Positions 55,260 to 64,000 of a stretch of 64,000 nucleotides of DNA are shown here, piece by piece. Source of the stretch: Pseudomonas arsenicoxydans (GTDB taxonomy: Bacteria; Pseudomonadota; Gammaproteobacteria; Pseudomonadales; Pseudomonadaceae); contig NZ_LT629705.1 of the NCBI RefSeq assembly GCF_900103875.1, forward strand, positions 820,501 to 884,500, written 5' to 3'. How positions within the stretch are numbered: position 1 is the first letter of the stretch; each line of letters starts with the position of its first letter. Position numbers and translations under genes: made by a program. The notes below the pieces were generated by a model. The model was given only the letters and a program-made list of their open reading frames with translations, was not told the origin of the DNA and did no database searches.

Positions 55260-55793
55260 GTGAACACTCGTTGCTGTTTAGTTGCACTGCTGCTGGCCTT
55301 GAGCGGATCGGTTTTCGCTGCGGACACCGTCGTGCTGCTGGTTCCCAACCCCATCGGGATCTGGCTGATCACGTTCGGCATTGCGTTTCTGATCGCCGAG
55401 GCAGCCTTGCCCAATTATGGTGTGATCGGTCTGGGCGGCATCGCGATGTTCGTGATTGGCGCAATCATTCTGACCAACACCGAAGTGCCTGTGCCATTGA
55501 TGATCGGCCTGGGATTGATCAGTGCGCTGCTGTTGATTTACCTGCTGATCCGCGCCCTGAAAACCCGGCCGCGCCGAGCCGTCACTGGCGATGCCGAACT
55601 GCTGGGCAGCGTGACGGCAGTGACATCGCTGCAGGCCGACAGCGCCTGTAACGGCTGGGTGCACCTGCAGGGAGAACAGTGGCAAGTATTCAGCGCCACC
55701 CCGCTGCAACCCGGGCAAAAGGTCCGGGTGGTGGGCCGCAAGGGATTACTGCTGCAAGTGGCCGCGGCTGACGCGGCGCCGGGTGGAGAATAA
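55260..55793 (+). CDS. NfeD-family membrane protein
   Basis: Membrane protein of 177 residues with a signal-like first helix, three or four helices ([56 protein letters not shown]) and a C-terminal OB-fold domain ([20 protein letters not shown]). It lacks the N-terminal serine protease domain of long NfeD proteins. Start is GTG with GGAGG upstream. It is always beside slipin genes and here lies two bases before one. Confidence 0.88.
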
Positions 55794-55795
55794 AC

Positions 55796-56554
55796 ATGGG
55801 CCTGCAATTGGGTTTTGCCGCGCTGCTATTACTGGTGATCGCGCTGGCGGGATCGACCTTTCGCATCCTGCGCGAATACGAGCGCGGGGTGGTGTTCCAG
55901 CTTGGGCGCTTCTGGCAGGTCAAAGGCCCTGGTCTCATTCTGTTGATTCCGGTGGTCCAGCAAATGGTCCGGGTCGACCTGCGCACGATCGTGCTCGACG
56001 TGCCGCCACAAGACGTCATCACCCGCGACAACGTCTCGGTCAAGGTCAACGCTGTGCTGTATTTCCGCGTGCTTGACCCACAGAAAGCCATCATCCAGGT
56101 CGAAGACTTCCTCATGGCCACCAGCCAACTGGCGCAGACCACGTTGCGGGCCGTGCTCGGTAAACATGAACTCGATGAACTGCTGGCCGAGCGCGAACGC
56201 CTGAACATCGACATCCAGCAAGTGCTCGACGCCCAGACTGATGCTTGGGGCATCAAGGTCGCGAACGTCGAGATCAAGCACGTGGACCTCAACGAATCGA
56301 TGATCCGCGCCATCGCCAAACAGGCCGAAGCCGAACGGGAACGGCGGGCTAAGGTGATTCACGCCGAAGGCGAATTGCAGGCCTCGGAAAAACTCATGCA
56401 GGCGGCAGAAATGCTCGGCCGCCAACCGGGGGCGATGCAGTTGCGTTACATGCAGACGCTGAGCTCGATTGCCGGCGACAAGAGTTCGACCATTGTCTTT
56501 CCACTGCCGATCGAGTTGCTCAAGGGGATGGCGGATTTGTCGGGGAAATCGTGA
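55796..56554 (+). CDS. Slipin (SPFH/stomatin-like protein)
   Basis: SPFH protein of 252 residues: one N-terminal membrane segment, then [20 protein letters not shown] and [20 protein letters not shown], and a coiled helix rich in [19 protein letters not shown]. Such proteins form rings in the membrane with their NfeD partner and are thought to organise membrane domains. The C-terminus ends with [18 protein letters not shown]. Confidence 0.9.
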
Positions 56555-57528: not shown

Positions 57529-58497
57529 TCAGTAAAGTCGATACATGGCTTGGCAACTGCCGCGCTCTCGTTCAAGCGCCTCATACGGCGCTCGCGCCCA
57601 GCGATCAATCCGCTCGCGCAACAGCGTCGACGCTTCACGATGCTTGTCCTCGCTGTCCCCGACAAACACCTCTGAAGGCTGCTTGGCATGCCGCCCCACC
57701 GCCGCAAACACTTGCTCACGCTGCAAATCATCCAAGCCAAAAAACTCAGCCAAACGCCCAGCCATCGTCCCCGGTAATTCGCTGTAGTTCACCGCCGCCC
57801 CACCGAACGCCCGGCATTGCGCCAAGCCTGATTCCAACAATCGCCCCAGCCACCGTGCGATGTAATCCTCTGTGCCGTCAAAGGGCAATCCGTCATCCAG
57901 CCCACTTGCCCCGATCATCCCCGGCACCATGTGCATGCCGGGTCGGCGCAGATGTGAAACAGCGATTTCCAGCGGATCGCGGTACAGAAACAACCACGGC
58001 GTCTCGGGAAAAGATTCGCGCAACAGCGGCAATTCAGCGATGTTCCAGGCATCGAGTTTGATCACCAGGCGCTGCTCGACACCGAGCCGACGCTGGCCGT
58101 AGGCAGACAGTAATCCTTGAATGGCAGCATGCCGTTCGGCTGCCGGTAAATCACTGCGGAGCAAGGCATCCAGCGGCGGCGGCTCGCTGATCACACAGTG
58201 GTTCTCAAGTTGCGCGAGCATCTGGCTGATGAGGGTCGAACCGCAGCGGGATGCATGAAAGATAAACGCGCTCGGCGCCAGACCGGGGCTGCGTTCCTGC
58301 CAATCAATGAGCGTCGTCAGCGGCGTTTCGCGGCGAAACGCCTGATTGAACGGCAGTCGCAACGCCTCTTCCACGGCATCACGGAAAAACGGCTGATGCA
58401 GCCGCGTGTAGCCGAACTAGCACCAGTCCACCCGCCACTGCCCAGCGACCTGCCAGACGCGGATCGGCAACCACCCCTCAAGATTCAGGCGCGCCAT
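57529..58497 (-). pseudogene. Sulfotransferase, interrupted by an in-frame TAG at codon 27
   Basis: PAPS-dependent sulfotransferase fold. The 5'-phosphosulfate loop AFIFHASRCGSTLIS is at residues about 77-91, and the 3'-phosphate site FLYRDPLEIAVSHLRRPG about 90 residues later. The frame opens at ATG 58497, overlapping the hydroxylase gene by 13 bases, and reads MARLNLEGWLPIRVWQ, then VAGQWRVDWC. It then meets TAG at 58417-58419 and continues in the same frame (FGYTRLHQPFFRDAV) to the natural end. A GTG at 58374 could restart translation and keep the whole PAPS site (281 residues). A TGG-to-TAG change is the simplest explanation. Either a pseudogene, a shortened active enzyme, or a sequencing error. 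Confidence 0.75.
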
Positions 58498-59270
58498 TGT
58501 TCGTTCCATTGACGCCGACCGTCGCGCATCGCTGCACGCAGTTCCTCGGTGGTAAACGGCAACCCGCGCTCGACGCCCAGCTCCACCACACGGGCAACAA
58601 ACGCTTCCGTGTCATGCAAGCCCTGCAAGGTCTGGCAGAGCTGCGGATCGCTTTCCACCAGCGCTTTGAACTGCGCAAAGAACGCATGACCGACATCGGG
58701 ACGTGGCGTCGCCGCCAGCCCATCAAGAATCGCCTGTTCCAGCCAGGCACCCGGACGGCAATCGAGCACCAGATGAACCCGCGCCCGAGTATCCCGATTG
58801 TCCACCCGATGCGGCCGCGACAGGTCGAGAAACCAGCACTCGCCCGCCGCCATCGGCATGCGCTGACCGTCCAGCATAAAGTCCACATGAGGCGGGCTGA
58901 GCAGCGGGATGTGTAGACGCAGATCAGCGTCTGGCCCGCCGAGGTCGTAGTCGCGATGCTCGTGAATCTGCCCGCCCGGCCCGAGCCGCAGCAGGCGTGC
59001 GCTGACGATTTCCAGCGGCAGATCACGCAATCCTTGCCGCCATCGAACATCCCGCAACCACGGCTCGCGCAACAGCGGCTCACCGCGACCGGGCGACAAC
59101 TCCGTCAACGCATCCTGTGCCGAAATCAGCGCGACACCGCTCCAGTCCCCGGCGTAATAATCACTGTTGAAATGAGCGTGCCACGTATCCTCGTCAATTG
59201 CCGCCAGCGCCTGCAACAACAGCGGCAAATCCACCGCCACCGGCAAGCGGGAGAAAGCCGCTCGACTCAT
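58485..59270 (-). CDS. Asp/Asn beta-hydroxylase-like protein with Nif11-like C-terminus
   Basis: Protein of 261 residues. Residues about 60-175 look like the aspartyl/asparaginyl beta-hydroxylase domain (Fe(II)/2-oxoglutarate): HEHRD at 103-107, LRLHIPL with H120, RPHRVDN with H154, then RVHLVLD. Residues about 197-250 (FFAQFKALVESDPQLCQTL, then LHDTEAFVARVVELG and PFTTEELRAAM) resemble a Nif11 domain, best known as the leader region of modified peptides. The ATG at 59270 overlaps the cysC stop by four bases (ATGA), so the frame back to 59324 is ignored. It may hydroxylate the exported surface protein or a peptide; the Nif11 call is by pattern only. Confidence 0.75.
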   Translation of the reverse strand: MSRAAFSRLPVAVDLPLLLQALAAIDEDTWHAHFNSDYYAGDWSGVALISAQDALTELSPGRGEPLLREPWLRDVRWRQGLRDLPLEIVSARLLRLGPGGQIHEHRDYDLGGPDADLRLHIPLLSPPHVDFMLDGQRMPMAAGECWFLDLSRPHRVDNRDTRARVHLVLDCRPGAWLEQAILDGLAATPRPDVGHAFFAQFKALVESDPQLCQTLQGLHDTEAFVARVVELGVERGLPFTTEELRAAMRDGRRQWNEQWRA

Positions 59271-59872
59271 CGTTTCGGCAGCACCGCGCATTCGCCGAGC
59301 CAGGTCAGCAAGCGGTCGAGGCACGCCTCAACCGATAGCACTCCGGTGTCGAGTACCAAGGCAGCCGACGGCGGTGTTTCATAGGGCGCGGAAACGCCGG
59401 TAAATCCCGCCAGGTCACCGCGACGTGCCCGGGCATAATGACCTTTGGGGTCACGCTGTTCGCACACCGCCAACGAAGCGCTGCACCAGACTTCGCGGTA
59501 GTCCTCACCCAGACGCTTGGCGAACACATCTCGCAGCTCAACCAGCGGCGCGATCATGGCGAGGATGACGATCTGCCCGTTCTCCACCAACAACGCCGCC
59601 ACTTCACTGGCCCGGCGAATGTTCTCCAGACGATCATGGTCGGTAAAACCCAGGTCGCGATTGAGCCCGACCCGCAGTCCGTCGCCATCGAGCACCAGGC
59701 TCTGCACGCCGCGCTCGAACAGTTTGGCGTGCAACGCCTGCGCCAGCGTCGACTTGCCCGCCGCCGGCAAACCGGTCAGCAGAATCGCCGTGCCGTGATG
59801 ACCATTACGCACCTCACGCTGTTCGCGGCTGATGCTCGCCGTCGGCGCGCGTAGATTATTGTTCTGGGGCAT
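59267..59872 (-). CDS. cysC: Adenylyl-sulfate (APS) kinase
   Basis: Kinase of 201 residues that turns APS into PAPS, the donor for sulfotransferases. Walker A is GLPAAGKST at 34-42. The APS-binding stretch reads DGDGLRVGLNRDLGFTDHDR, where CysC usually has DGDNVRHGLN, so two positions differ. ENIRRASEVAALLVENGQIV follows as in the family. It lacks the ATP sulfurylase partner of CysNC. Position between a TolC channel and modification enzymes suggests a dedicated PAPS supply. Confidence 0.88.
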   Translation of the reverse strand: MPQNNNLRAPTASISREQREVRNGHHGTAILLTGLPAAGKSTLAQALHAKLFERGVQSLVLDGDGLRVGLNRDLGFTDHDRLENIRRASEVAALLVENGQIVILAMIAPLVELRDVFAKRLGEDYREVWCSASLAVCEQRDPKGHYARARRGDLAGFTGVSAPYETPPSAALVLDTGVLSVEACLDRLLTWLGECAVLPKR

Positions 59873-61370
59873 GGGTCACCGGCACGGTTATGTTGCCCGA
59901 CGCCCATGCCGCCTCGCGGTTGGCCAACGCGGTGGCAATGGACTGGACTTCGGTGGATTGGACCTCGTCCGGCATCGGATCGAGGCCGGCACTGGCGAAA
60001 ATCTGACCATAAGCGTTACGCAGATCAGCATAGGACAGGTCACGGCGCAAATCTGCCTGCAACGTATTCAGTTCGCCCTGGATCAGGTCCAGTTCACCGA
60101 GGCCCGCCGCCTGATGACGGTTACGCAACTGCCCGAGAATCTGCCCGTCGATGCTCGACAATTCCTGGTTGGTCTGGAACTGGTGCAGCGCCTCCTGATA
60201 GTTGGCGTTGGCCACGTAGAGCTGGGCCAGCACGGCGATGGACATGGCCTGACGGCGCGCCTTGGCGACTTCTTCGCCGGCCTTGGCCACGTTGATCGCG
60301 GCCGGTGCGGAAATCACGTTGAACAGGTTCCAGGTCAGCTTGACCCCGTAGTCGGCCCACTTGTCATTAACCAGAAACGAGTTGCTGTCGTAATGCCCGC
60401 CCGCCGAAAACTCCAGCCCCGGCAACAATCGCAGCATGGCTTTACGGGTTTCGGCGGTGCTGATGCGAGTTTGGTAATCCTGCTCGCGCAGTTCCGGACG
60501 GCTGGCCAGGGCTTCATGTTCCAGGCTGGCCATGCCGACCTTCAATTGCGGGATCGAGTAATCATCCGGGGTCGCCAGTTTCACATCGGTGCCCATTGGC
60601 AGGTTGATCAGGGTCGCCAGTTCGGTTTTGGCCAACGACAAGGCCCGGCGCTGCTCTTGCAACTGGCGGGTCGCTTCGATCAGCGAACGCTGATAACCCA
60701 ACGCCTGGACAGGATCGCCGATGCGTTGTGTGCTCATGCTTTGACTGTTGCTGCGCGCGGTATCGACCCGGGCCATCAGGCTGTCGATCTGCGTGAGCAG
60801 ACGCTCGGCGGCCACCGCTCGCCAATAGGCCGAGCGCACATCCTGGACGATGGTGTTGATCACCTTGCGCCGACGTTCCTGCACGATCAGTCGCTGGTCG
60901 CCCTGCTGCTTGGCGCTGATGTAACTGACGCCGAAATCGAGGACGTTCCAGACCATGGTCAGGTCGGCCACACGGCGGTCACGGTCCTGGGAGGTCGAAG
61001 GCTCCAGAGACTGGGTACCGGTGAGCACGCTCTGGCTGCTGGAGGCACCCTGGTTGTTGCGCCCGACATAACCTGCGTCGAGCGCCATGCGCGGCAGCAT
61101 GTCGAAGCTGGCGAGGTCGAGTTGGCGCTTGGCCAACGCCTCTTCCATGATCTTGAGCCGGCCTTCGAGGTTGTATTTCACCGCGCGGGCCATCGCCTGG
61201 TGCAAGGTCAAAGGACCATTGAGGGGCTCCTGACCGGTGTACATCGTTTGTAGATCACTCTTGGCGCGCTGTTCGCTGACGCTACGTTCAATCGGTTCAC
61301 TTTTGACCGCACATCCGCTGATCGCCAGCGCCAGCAGACTGGCGCCGAACAACTTCTGACTTCTATTCAT
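59856..61370 (-). CDS. TolC-family outer-membrane channel
   Basis: Outer-membrane factor of 504 residues. A lipobox-like ALAISGC ends the signal region (residues 1-21). Two homologous halves with the coiled segments (VNTIVQDVRSAYWRAVAAER-like IVQDVRSAYWRAVAAERLLT; ARRQAMSIAVLAQLYVANAN) form the usual tunnel. It starts 39 bases after the giant surface-protein gene and overlaps cysC by 17 bases. It is most likely the exit channel of a type I secretion route whose ABC and adaptor genes are outside the window. Confidence 0.87.
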   Translation of the reverse strand: MNRSQKLFGASLLALAISGCAVKSEPIERSVSEQRAKSDLQTMYTGQEPLNGPLTLHQAMARAVKYNLEGRLKIMEEALAKRQLDLASFDMLPRMALDAGYVGRNNQGASSSQSVLTGTQSLEPSTSQDRDRRVADLTMVWNVLDFGVSYISAKQQGDQRLIVQERRRKVINTIVQDVRSAYWRAVAAERLLTQIDSLMARVDTARSNSQSMSTQRIGDPVQALGYQRSLIEATRQLQEQRRALSLAKTELATLINLPMGTDVKLATPDDYSIPQLKVGMASLEHEALASRPELREQDYQTRISTAETRKAMLRLLPGLEFSAGGHYDSNSFLVNDKWADYGVKLTWNLFNVISAPAAINVAKAGEEVAKARRQAMSIAVLAQLYVANANYQEALHQFQTNQELSSIDGQILGQLRNRHQAAGLGELDLIQGELNTLQADLRRDLSYADLRNAYGQIFASAGLDPMPDEVQSTEVQSIATALANREAAWASGNITVPVTHAPEQ

Positions 61371-61409
61371 CCTTGACTGCCCCTGGGTTGCGCATTGTTC
61401 TTAAATTGT

Positions 61410-64000
61410 TCAGGCCTGCATTTCGCTGATGCCGACCTGTTTCAACGCCGCCGCCAAGCGGTCGACCTGCCGTTGCTCGGTGTCTGTGAGCTGTTGCAAT
61501 TGCTGGTTCAGGGTCAATGCGCCAAACACGCCGCGCAGTCCTTGGGACGCATCCCCGCCCTTTATCGAATGACTGCCAAAGGTGTTCAGCGAATCCCGTT
61601 CGCTGGCGGTGTCCTGATTGAACAGGCTCGACAAGGTGCTGGTGCTGAACACTCCGCCATCGCCACCGCCAAAGCCGAGGAAACCGTGACCCGTGCCATC
61701 GCCACCGCTCTCGCTGCTGCTGAAGACCTGTGCAATGAAGCTTGGCGACAGCGCGCCGCGATTCATGAAAATGTCGCCCAGCGGTCGGATCCCGTTGCCG
61801 ATCACCCGGTCTTCGAACAACGGTGCAAATGTCAGCGGCGAACCGAGAGTGCCGCTCGGTGGGGCGAAGATAATCGGCTGCAGTGGCACGTTGGGCTGAT
61901 CAGGGACGCTGACTGGTTGCGTGACCCGGAATTCTGGATCCGGCGACACAATCACCAGCGGCGAGGTCGTCGCTACCGTGTTGACGGCGTAGCTGTTAGA
62001 GCTGCTGAGGCCAATGCCGGTATTGCCGGATGCATCGCTGACACCCGAGGTGTTCACGCTGATGGCGTTATTGGTCGTGTTGACGTTGGCGCTTGGTGTC
62101 AGCACCGCCGTCCAGGTGATGCCGCCGTCGTTGCTCGACAGGTTGGACAACGTGCCGTTGGCCACACTGATGTCAGACAGGTCGAACCCGCTAACGGCCT
62201 CATTGAAGGTGAACGTCACCAGCGACGTCTGGCCGGCGCTCAGGTTCGGGTTGGCGATGACAACGGTGGCGGTCGGCCGCTCGCCGTCGATGGCGTAATT
62301 GTTCGACACCGCGACGCCGCTGCCCGTGTTGCCTGCCTGGTCGGAGACGTTGCTGGTATCGAGGGCGATGAAGTTGCTCGGATCGGACATGTTCGCGGTC
62401 GGCGTGAAGGTCGCGGTCCAGGTTTTGCCGCCGTCGCTGCTGGTGAGGTTGCTCAATTCGCCGTTGGTCACGCTCAAATCCGACAGATCGAAATCGCTCA
62501 CCACCTCGCTGAAGGTGAATGTCACGAGTGTCGTCTGGCCAATGCCCAAATGCGGGTTGGCGACCACGATGGTGGCGGTCGGGCGGGTGGCGTCGAGGGC
62601 GTAGTTGTTGGAGATGGCAATCGAGGCACCGGCATTGCCGGCGGCGTCGGCCACGTTGCCGGTGTCGAGCAGGATCAGGTTGGTGGCGTCGTTGATGTTT
62701 GCCGTCGGCGTCAGGGTCGCGGTCCAGTTCACGCCGCCGTCACTGCTGGCCAGGTTGGACAGCACGCCATTGGCCACGCTGAGGTCCGACAAGTCGAAAC
62801 CGGACACCGCTTCGCTGAAGGTGATGGTCACCGTGGTGGTCTCGCCGATGCCCAGGCGGTTGTCTGCCACCACAATGGTCGCGGTCGGACGCGCCGTGTC
62901 GACCGCGTAGTTGTTGGAATCGGTCACGCCCACGCCGGCGTTGCCAGAAGCGTTGGTCACGCCGCTGTTGTCCAGGCTGATCAGGTTAGTGGTGTCCGTC
63001 ACATTGGCAGAAGGCGTGAAGGTCGCGGTCCAGGTGATGCCGCCATCGCTGCTGCTGACGTTGCTCAACGTGCCGTTGGCGATGGTCAGGTCAGCGTTGC
63101 TGAAACCGCTGACGGCTTCACTGAAGGTGATGGTTACCCCAGACGTTTCACCCACCTTGAGGGCGTTGTCGGCGATCACGATGGTCGCGGTCGGCACCTG
63201 GGTTTCAACGACGTAATTGGCCGAATTGATAACGCCTGTCCCGGCGTTGCCAGCCAGATCGCTGACGCCGGAATTATTCAGGGTGATGAGGTTACTGGCA
63301 TCGGTAATGCCGGCAGTCGGGGTGAAGGTTGCAGTCCAGGTGATGCCGCCATCGCTGCTGGTGACGTTGCTCAACGTGCCATTGGCAACGCTCAGGTCGC
63401 TGTTGTCGAAACCGCTGACGGCCTCGCTGAAAGTGATGGTCACCAGCGCGGTTTCGCCCGGTTTCAGGGTCGCATCGCTCAACACGATGGTCGCGGTCGG
63501 GCGCTGGCTGTCGATGACGTAGTTGTTGGAATCGGTGGTGCCACTGCCCGTGTTGCCCGCCAGATCCGCGACGCCGGTGTTATCGAGCGTGATCAGGTTG
63601 GTCGCGTCAGTGATGCTGGCAGTGGGCGTAAACGTTGCCGTCCAGGTAATACCGCCATCGCTGCTGCTCACGGCGGACAAGGTGCCGTTGGCGATAGTCA
63701 AATCCGCGTTGGTGAAACCGCTCACTGCCTCGCTGAAGGTGATGGTCACCAGGCTGGTTTGACCCACGCCCAGTGCTGCGTCAGCCACTACGATAGTCGC
63801 GGTGGGTCGCTGGGTGTCGATGGCGTAGTTGTTGGAATCGGTGGTGCCGCTGCCAGCGTTGCCCGAGCCGTTTTGCACACCGCTATTGTCCAGCGTGATT
63901 AGGTTAGTCGCGTCGGTGATGCTGGTGGTCGGTGTGAAGGTCGCCGTCCAGGTGATGCCGCCGTCGCTGCTGCTCACCGCTGTCAGTGTGCCGTTGGCGA
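61410..64000 (-). CDS. Giant Ig-like repeat surface protein, C-terminal part (5' end outside window)
   Basis: Only the last 863 codons are in the window; the frame is open to base 64000. Six complete and two partial copies of a 102-residue Ig-like repeat (pattern SSDGGITWTATFTPTA, ITDATNLITLDNSGV, NNYAIDTQRPTATIV, TFSEAVSGF) are followed by a unique tail of about 190 residues. The tail is rich in P, S and G and ends LNQQLQQLTDTEQRQVDRLA, then AALKQVGISEMQA. No RTX nonapeptides or LPXTG-like anchor is present. It is typical of large secreted adhesins. The TolC gene downstream fits type I export. N-terminal retention or cleavage signals cannot be judged. Confidence 0.85.
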   Translation of the reverse strand, partial: ANGTLTAVSSSDGGITWTATFTPTTSITDATNLITLDNSGVQNGSGNAGSGTTDSNNYAIDTQRPTATIVVADAALGVGQTSLVTITFSEAVSGFTNADLTIANGTLSAVSSSDGGITWTATFTPTASITDATNLITLDNTGVADLAGNTGSGTTDSNNYVIDSQRPTATIVLSDATLKPGETALVTITFSEAVSGFDNSDLSVANGTLSNVTSSDGGITWTATFTPTAGITDASNLITLNNSGVSDLAGNAGTGVINSANYVVETQVPTATIVIADNALKVGETSGVTITFSEAVSGFSNADLTIANGTLSNVSSSDGGITWTATFTPSANVTDTTNLISLDNSGVTNASGNAGVGVTDSNNYAVDTARPTATIVVADNRLGIGETTTVTITFSEAVSGFDLSDLSVANGVLSNLASSDGGVNWTATLTPTANINDATNLILLDTGNVADAAGNAGASIAISNNYALDATRPTATIVVANPHLGIGQTTLVTFTFSEVVSDFDLSDLSVTNGELSNLTSSDGGKTWTATFTPTANMSDPSNFIALDTSNVSDQAGNTGSGVAVSNNYAIDGERPTATVVIANPNLSAGQTSLVTFTFNEAVSGFDLSDISVANGTLSNLSSNDGGITWTAVLTPSANVNTTNNAISVNTSGVSDASGNTGIGLSSSNSYAVNTVATTSPLVIVSPDPEFRVTQPVSVPDQPNVPLQPIIFAPPSGTLGSPLTFAPLFEDRVIGNGIRPLGDIFMNRGALSPSFIAQVFSSSESGGDGTGHGFLGFGGGDGGVFSTSTLSSLFNQDTASERDSLNTFGSHSIKGGDASQGLRGVFGALTLNQQLQQLTDTEQRQVDRLAAALKQVGISEMQA
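62139..63974. repeat. Tandem 306-base repeats of the surface protein
   Basis: Six complete units of exactly 306 bases (boundaries 63974, 63668, 63362, 63056, 62750, 62444 and 62138), each encoding 102 residues starting at SSDGG. Partial units flank both ends. Units 62139-62750 are more diverged than those near 64000, suggesting expansion from the left-hand (upstream) side of the gene. Confidence 0.88.

Follow-up and report, generated by a model that had tools for sequence, protein, structure and literature searches.

A 64,000-nucleotide stretch of the single-contig 6.5-Mb genome of Pseudomonas arsenicoxydans (genome positions 820501-884500, hereafter the window) ends in the middle of a locus that may export and chemically decorate a giant surface protein, using two sulfotransferases (ST1 and ST2), 3'-phosphoadenosine 5'-phosphosulfate (PAPS) supplied by a CysC of the locus, a hydroxylase, and export of the TolC/HlyD type. 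We judge the evidence for this reading to be about evenly balanced. Some soil and plant Pseudomonas probably place sulfate and hydroxyl groups on a protein that they export, a kind of decoration of which few bacterial cases are known. Five minus-strand genes of the locus lie in the window, encoding the C-terminal part of a repeat-rich adhesin, TolC, CysC, an Fe(II)/2-oxoglutarate (2OG) hydroxylase of the Asp/Asn beta-hydroxylase family, and ST1, separated by a 39-base gap and then overlapping by 17, 4, and 13 bases. An earlier interpretation made from the letters of the window without database searches (the sequence-only reading) had given this gene set, strand, gap, and overlaps, all of which were exact on re-measurement. 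Family assignment is unambiguous for CysC, TolC, the hydroxylase, and the Ig-like adhesin. ST2 and the remaining genes of the locus lie beyond the window end (Table 1).

The arrangement is far beyond chance. Across a sample of 149 Pseudomonas genomes, the same draw for all five families counted here, the hydroxylase is found in 39 and ST1 in the identical 39 (a weak ST1-like fragment without a hydroxylase in G115 falls under the ST1 match threshold), and ST1 adjoins the hydroxylase in all 38 relatives mapped. The DUF4347 domain of the adhesin occurs in every hydroxylase genome, against 31 among the remaining 110 (Fisher 6e-17), and in all 41 genomes with ST2. DUF4347 is present in 70 genomes altogether and M50-HlyD, an HlyD-type adaptor fused to an M50 protease, in 72; the two occur together in 69, with three genomes carrying M50-HlyD alone and one DUF4347 alone. 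In 37 of the 39 genomes the hydroxylase-ST1 pair stands at the adhesin locus itself: after TolC, with or without CysC, in 30, between the M50 gene and the GNAT, tail-collar, or adhesin genes in six, and, in one (G066), next to two collar genes and transcribed divergently from the adhesin operon. A second set of 45 loci (44 from Pseudomonas and one from a Chromatiales metagenome-assembled genome, MAG), which overlaps the genus sample (L178/G135, L208/G076) and is not independent of it, has ST1 adjacent to the hydroxylase at all 45, TolC and the adhesin C-terminus at 40, and CysC at 32. The order of the five genes, which the sequence-only reading had proposed to look for in other Pseudomonas genomes, thus recurs across the genus, and in both sets the modification genes are mostly with the adhesin rather than mostly without it, the outcome in which that reading would have dropped the link. 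Recurrent gene order and the presence of DUF4347 in 39 of 39 genomes rule out the adhesin as a chance neighbour. The claim that the operon sulfates and/or hydroxylates an exported adhesin or a co-secreted peptide is upheld in so far as an exported surface protein is the proper companion of the modification genes; its chemical part is weighed below.

The link between a sulfotransferase and the adhesin is firmest for ST2, outside the window, while the window's own ST1 is interrupted in this strain; on this point the sequence-only reading needs correction. The ST2 orthologue of the genus (40 matches at 67% identity or more) stands immediately upstream of the adhesin and on the same strand at all 39 loci measured and, judging by its map, in G084 as well. 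Outside the genus, five of 11 ST2 relatives lie immediately upstream of a DUF4347 protein. Among these five proteins only that of L159 has the LEPR start of the P. arsenicoxydans adhesin, whose N-terminus is LEPRMLFDG; in those of L157, L158, and L161 the start looks by eye like a signal peptide, less clearly so in that of L160, and those of L157 and L160 end in a C-terminal hydrophobic stretch with a basic tail. Five paralogues of ST2 within the genus (L218, L219, L220, L221, and L222; 46-49% identity) all adjoin other exported proteins, namely three autotransporters and two giant Matrixin-domain proteins. One of the autotransporters is split in two frames, the first with ESPR and the second with the beta-domain, and each Matrixin-domain protein has an OEP gene on its far side. 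The common neighbour of ST2 and its paralogues is a large surface protein, regardless of the export route.

The predicted fold of ST2 is closest to that of tyrosylprotein sulfotransferases (TPSTs), which rank first in structural comparison with an AlphaFold2 model of ST2 (pLDDT 86.9) and also come first in a profile search (E 2.3e-9). The two PAPS motifs, with the 5'-PSB arginine and the 3'-PB serine (PRSGST and R112...S120), are invariant in 17 aligned sequences. ST2 shares its predicted fold and PAPS motifs with human TPST1/2, from which it differs in having about 20% identity, no membrane anchor, and, in the alignments discussed below, no match for the catalytic glutamate.

A start at 59270 gives the hydroxylase its 4-base overlap with CysC and 261 residues, the length most often seen in the best 120 of 452 listed database relatives (a second list of relatives covers the best 120 of 1000); the mechanical list of open reading frames places the start earlier, at 59324. 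Counted from 59270, the Fe(II)/2OG ligands of the HxD...H plus Arg pattern are H105, D107, H154, and R164, invariant in 39 sequences and aligned with those of the closest solved structure, L-proline cis-4-hydroxylase (4p7w; E 1.2e-6). The locus hydroxylase shares these residues and its Pfam family with the Asp/Asn beta-hydroxylases, 4p7w included, and unlike them it has a Nif11-like C-terminus, which weakly matches a solved Nif11 protein (E 0.041), and a constant sulfotransferase partner in the genus sample. The substrate of animal AspH is an EGF-like domain, and none is among the Pfam families listed for the adhesin. Five class-level matches from other bacteria combine a sulfotransferase with a hydroxylase domain of 30-38% identity, as fused single proteins in L131, L132, L134, and L135 and as two neighbouring genes in L133; a fifth fusion, in Diaphorobacter (L130), points away from the gene of an IPTL-CTERM protein. 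The neighbour of L131 is a beta-helix protein, TonB receptors are found near L132 and L133, and L135 lacks a clear surface context, while in Asticcacaulis separate hydroxylase and sulfotransferase genes are downstream of a TonB receptor. From these fusions and the identical genome sets of hydroxylase and ST1 we argue that both steps share one substrate. It is conceivable, if improbable, that the hydroxylase produces the very hydroxyl that ST1 sulfates, leaving an O-sulfated hydroxy-amino acid on a bacterial surface protein. ST2 would add its own TPST-like sulfation independently, both steps would precede passage through a channel rich in adaptors and with no ABC gene in the locus, and the same hydroxylase-sulfotransferase unit, in some cases a single fused protein, would have been reused on other surface proteins in other bacteria. 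Such an O-sulfated residue would be a protein modification with no earlier description in the literature searched.

PAPS supply follows the sulfotransferases. CysC, which passes the APS-kinase equivalog TIGR00455, is present at 26 of the 45 loci that have a sulfotransferase (ST1 or ST2) and at none of the 15 that have neither (Fisher 4e-5), in agreement with the association of CysC and sulfotransferase proposed in the sequence-only reading. These 60 loci include G086, whose M50 hit is doubtful because one short frame gave both this hit and the DUF4347 hit. They leave out G130a and G084, the M50 gene of the latter lying beyond the stretch covered, and take one of the two copies of the pair in G079; for G076, G083, G035, and G079 the scoring combined two contigs. 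Because the P. arsenicoxydans genome has three other clear APS-kinase-family genes, the CysC of the operon is taken to be a supplement, which would top up PAPS for the sulfotransferases.

The position of ST2, the co-occurrence of hydroxylase, ST1, and adhesin, and the distribution of CysC together form a context that supports sulfation of an exported protein of the locus. From the genes, their order and co-occurrence, the metal- and 2OG-binding residues of the hydroxylase, and the PAPS motifs and TPST-like predicted fold of ST2, all read from sequence, we infer a protein acceptor, cytoplasmic timing, the identity of the modified protein, and the export route. In the cytoplasm, ST2 and ST1 would transfer sulfate from PAPS to the protein before its export. 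The favoured and most likely target of ST2 is the DUF4347 adhesin, and the hydroxylase and ST1 may form one module acting on the adhesin or on its tail-collar partner. The decorated adhesin would leave through TolC and the three HlyD-type adaptors of the cluster, one of them bearing an M50 membrane protease.

The tail-collar protein, a serious rival that accompanies the hydroxylase-ST1 pair as constantly as the adhesin does, could instead be the sole substrate of the hydroxylase and ST1, leaving ST2 alone to serve the adhesin. A collar gene is present at 37 of 37 hydroxylase loci and at 13 of 23 without one (Fisher 1.5e-5, with the collar gene of G076 on another contig), and where the hydroxylase-ST1 pair lies elsewhere in the genome, DUF4347 still has a collar gene next to it. 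Two collar genes and GNAT precede the pair in G066, and in the Chromatiales MAG (L212:1-5118), for which no DUF4347 was found, a collagen-repeat protein, a collar protein, GNAT, the hydroxylase, and an ST1 relative are together. Retention of the collar gene at those 13 hydroxylase-free loci argues the other way, as does the small difference, two columns only, between the collar proteins of loci with and without the hydroxylase; nor was a collar gene noticed alongside the hydroxylase-sulfotransferase fusions of other bacteria. We regard a small collar protein as the substrate as somewhat unlikely.

Another alternative is that a glycan, a lipid, or a small molecule is the substrate of the hydroxylase and ST1, perhaps of ST2 too, and that the genes concerned are near the adhesin by chance. 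A GT39-like gene is present in the locus, the L-proline cis-4-hydroxylase closest to the hydroxylase uses free proline, and the orphan pair of G130 lies near genes that by eye resemble sugar-modifying ones. ST1, modelled with AlphaFold2 from a relative whose copy is intact, shows a generic sulfotransferase fold, for which Foldseek places the curacin sulfotransferase on top. The GT39-like gene is, however, absent at many loci that retain the hydroxylase and ST1, ST2 and its paralogues adjoin surface proteins bearing three different export signatures, and the predicted fold of ST2 is TPST-like. A non-protein substrate seems quite improbable, and decoration of the exported protein is the reading we retain.

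Several observations weigh against that reading. First, the sampled genomes are related and the Fisher tests ignore kinship. Second, the association is incomplete: of the 70 genomes with DUF4347, 31 have no hydroxylase and 29 no ST2, six of the 11 ST2 relatives outside the genus adjoin unrelated or unidentified genes, and the hydroxylase-ST1 pair stands apart from the adhesin in two of the 39 genus genomes and at five of the 45 loci of the second set. In the two genus genomes (G130 and G076) the DUF4347 locus is on another contig; of the five loci, four belong to Pseudomonas that carry DUF4347 elsewhere in the genome and the fifth is the Chromatiales MAG. Third, comparison of the adhesins points to no acceptor residue: no N-terminal or C-terminal column separates those at loci with and without the hydroxylase, and their tyrosine content is lower at loci with a sulfotransferase (median 1.29%, n=36) than at loci without (2.07%, n=13). 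Fourth, in TPSTs a glutamate between the PAPS motifs is catalytic, and at its position two sequence alignments, at about 20% identity, provisionally place Met and Thr/Ser in ST2. Since these alignments leave the glutamate unmatched, we do not assign ST2 as a TPST. The passages on TPST mechanism in two papers name only His or Glu as the catalytic base (PMC9372746, PMC6637879).

Four further observations concern the same genes. Comparison of ST1 with solved structures by sequence returned nothing above antibody noise. ST2 and the hydroxylase are not always found together, with seven hydroxylase genomes lacking ST2 and nine ST2 genomes lacking the hydroxylase. The recurrent tyrosine of the Big_12 repeats (16 of 32 tyrosines) was considered as a sulfation signature and rejected, because tyrosine is higher in adhesins at sulfotransferase-free loci. 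Two orphan hydroxylase-ST1 pairs (L207:4183-11724 and L210:3861-11724) lie directly downstream of genes that by eye are type VI secretion-like.

In this strain codon 27 of the 323 in ST1 is an in-frame TAG, after which a GTG at 58374 opens a frame of 281 residues. All 44 Pseudomonas relatives of the 45-locus set have ST1 uninterrupted between its start region and the PAPS loop, and the TAG is the only one among the ST1 matches of the genus sample, two others of which list a TGA in frames ending near the normal length. The interruption could mean that ST1, as a part of the module, is decaying and without function in P. arsenicoxydans, but the reading frames of the hydroxylase, CysC, TolC, the adhesin, ST2, and the adaptors are all open, the shorter ST1 frame retains the PAPS loop, and the hydroxylase-ST1 pair stays joined at several positions in relatives; we consider decay very unlikely. 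With ST2 open despite the interruption of ST1, sulfation in this strain could go on through ST2. In Pseudomonas sp. TH31 (L209:9986-10782), the hydroxylase is split across two frames and ST1 is open.

The export apparatus departs from the classical type I set. The sequence-only reading expected HlyD and ABC genes past position 64000, and the first of these expectations was borne out three times over; for the second, a signature search of the cluster stretch found no ABC ATPase between the adaptor genes and ST1, which rules out a Rax-type ABC exporter in the cluster, although an ABC gene may lie elsewhere in the genome. HlyD-type and TolC genes are thus present in the cluster and the ABC signature is absent from it, the sole such signature of this stretch lying at about genome 905200-906150, beyond the cluster. 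By the same signature search, an ABC signature occurs elsewhere in the stretch at seven of the 60 loci; the stretches covered extend as far as the HlyD gene at 44 of them. The best NCBIfam match of the M50-HlyD protein is a daptide (RiPP, ribosomally synthesized and post-translationally modified peptide) intramembrane protease, at 142.8 bits under a cut-off of 300. With type I secreted giant adhesins of the LapA/RTX type, the locus has in common a giant repeat adhesin, HlyD-type adaptors, and TolC, and unlike them it has three adaptors, one fused to M50, with no ABC signature in the cluster and no RTX repeat family among the Pfam families listed for the adhesin. An exporter without an ABC gene in its locus is a second question that this system raises.

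Among known systems, the closest is raxX-raxSTAB of Xanthomonas, which is described as having a TPST-like sulfotransferase beside exported-protein genes, HlyD-type export, and PAPS as donor, with raxST homologues in diverse contexts (PMC6637879). The Pseudomonas locus differs in its giant adhesin neighbour, its additional hydroxylase and second sulfotransferase, and the absence of an ABC (RaxB) signature from the cluster; TolC and CysC are encoded inside it, whereas in Xanthomonas they are described as housekeeping genes (PMC6637879). In these papers bacterial protein sulfation is known from Xanthomonas RaxX, and a review calls bacterial TPST genes sparse and mentions as unpublished that some adjoin exported-protein genes (PMC9372746); this mention is the nearest earlier hint. 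A search of open-licence PMC papers found no description of this gene set, in keeping with the statement of the sequence-only reading that it knew of no pathway with this exact set in Pseudomonas. If our reading is correct, a family of protein sulfotransferases would be a fixed neighbour of giant adhesins and autotransporters, often with its own CysC, in tractable soil Pseudomonas, and sulfation would alter the charge and binding of the adhesin. The exact pairing of hydroxylase and sulfotransferase hints at a coupled modification that is directly accessible to mass spectrometry.

Table 1. Features of the locus, in window positions unless marked as genome positions; scores are in bits, with cut-offs in brackets.
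Feature	Position	Strand	Basis or remark
ST1, sulfotransferase, interrupted frame	57529..58497	-	Sulfotransfer_3 26.8 (Pfam, marginally under cut-off 27) on the open part, 57529-58374, 281 aa
In-frame TAG, codon 27 of ST1	58417..58419	-	read from sequence
HYD, Fe(II)/2-oxoglutarate hydroxylase, Asp/Asn beta-hydroxylase family, C-terminal Nif11-like domain, 261 aa	58485..59270	-	Asp_Arg_Hydrox 53 (22.6); Nif11 22.9 (Pfam, slightly under cut-off 23.8)
CysC, adenylylsulfate (APS) kinase, 201 aa	59267..59872	-	APS_kinase 172 (21.1); TIGR00455 199 (138.7)
TolC-type outer membrane channel, 504 aa	59856..61370	-	OEP 125 (22)
Giant adhesin, C-terminal part	61410..64000	-	7 Big_12 stretches within the window part, 790 (27)
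Giant adhesin, whole gene, 2430 aa	genome 881910-889202	-	DUF4347 174; 16 Big_12 stretches; extends 4702 bases beyond the window end
ST2, second sulfotransferase	genome 889245-890129	as adhesin	immediately upstream of the adhesin
PMT_2/GT39-like gene	genome 890208-891779		38 (26.1)
Tail-collar-domain protein	genome 892024-892611	opposite	
DUF6916 protein	genome 892669-892980	opposite	
GNAT	genome 893012-893509		
M50-HlyD fusion	genome 893522-895618		L006:17523-19493
Two further HlyD-type adaptors	genome 895619-896938 and 896935-897717		

Two minor features were also noticed. After the collar gene, a stretch resembling a tRNA 3' end (L006:16613-16650, genome about 892612-892650) was not called as a tRNA by ARAGORN. 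Within the window, positions 55260-56554 on the plus strand hold two genes, first NfeD and then one of the SPFH/Band 7 (stomatin) type.

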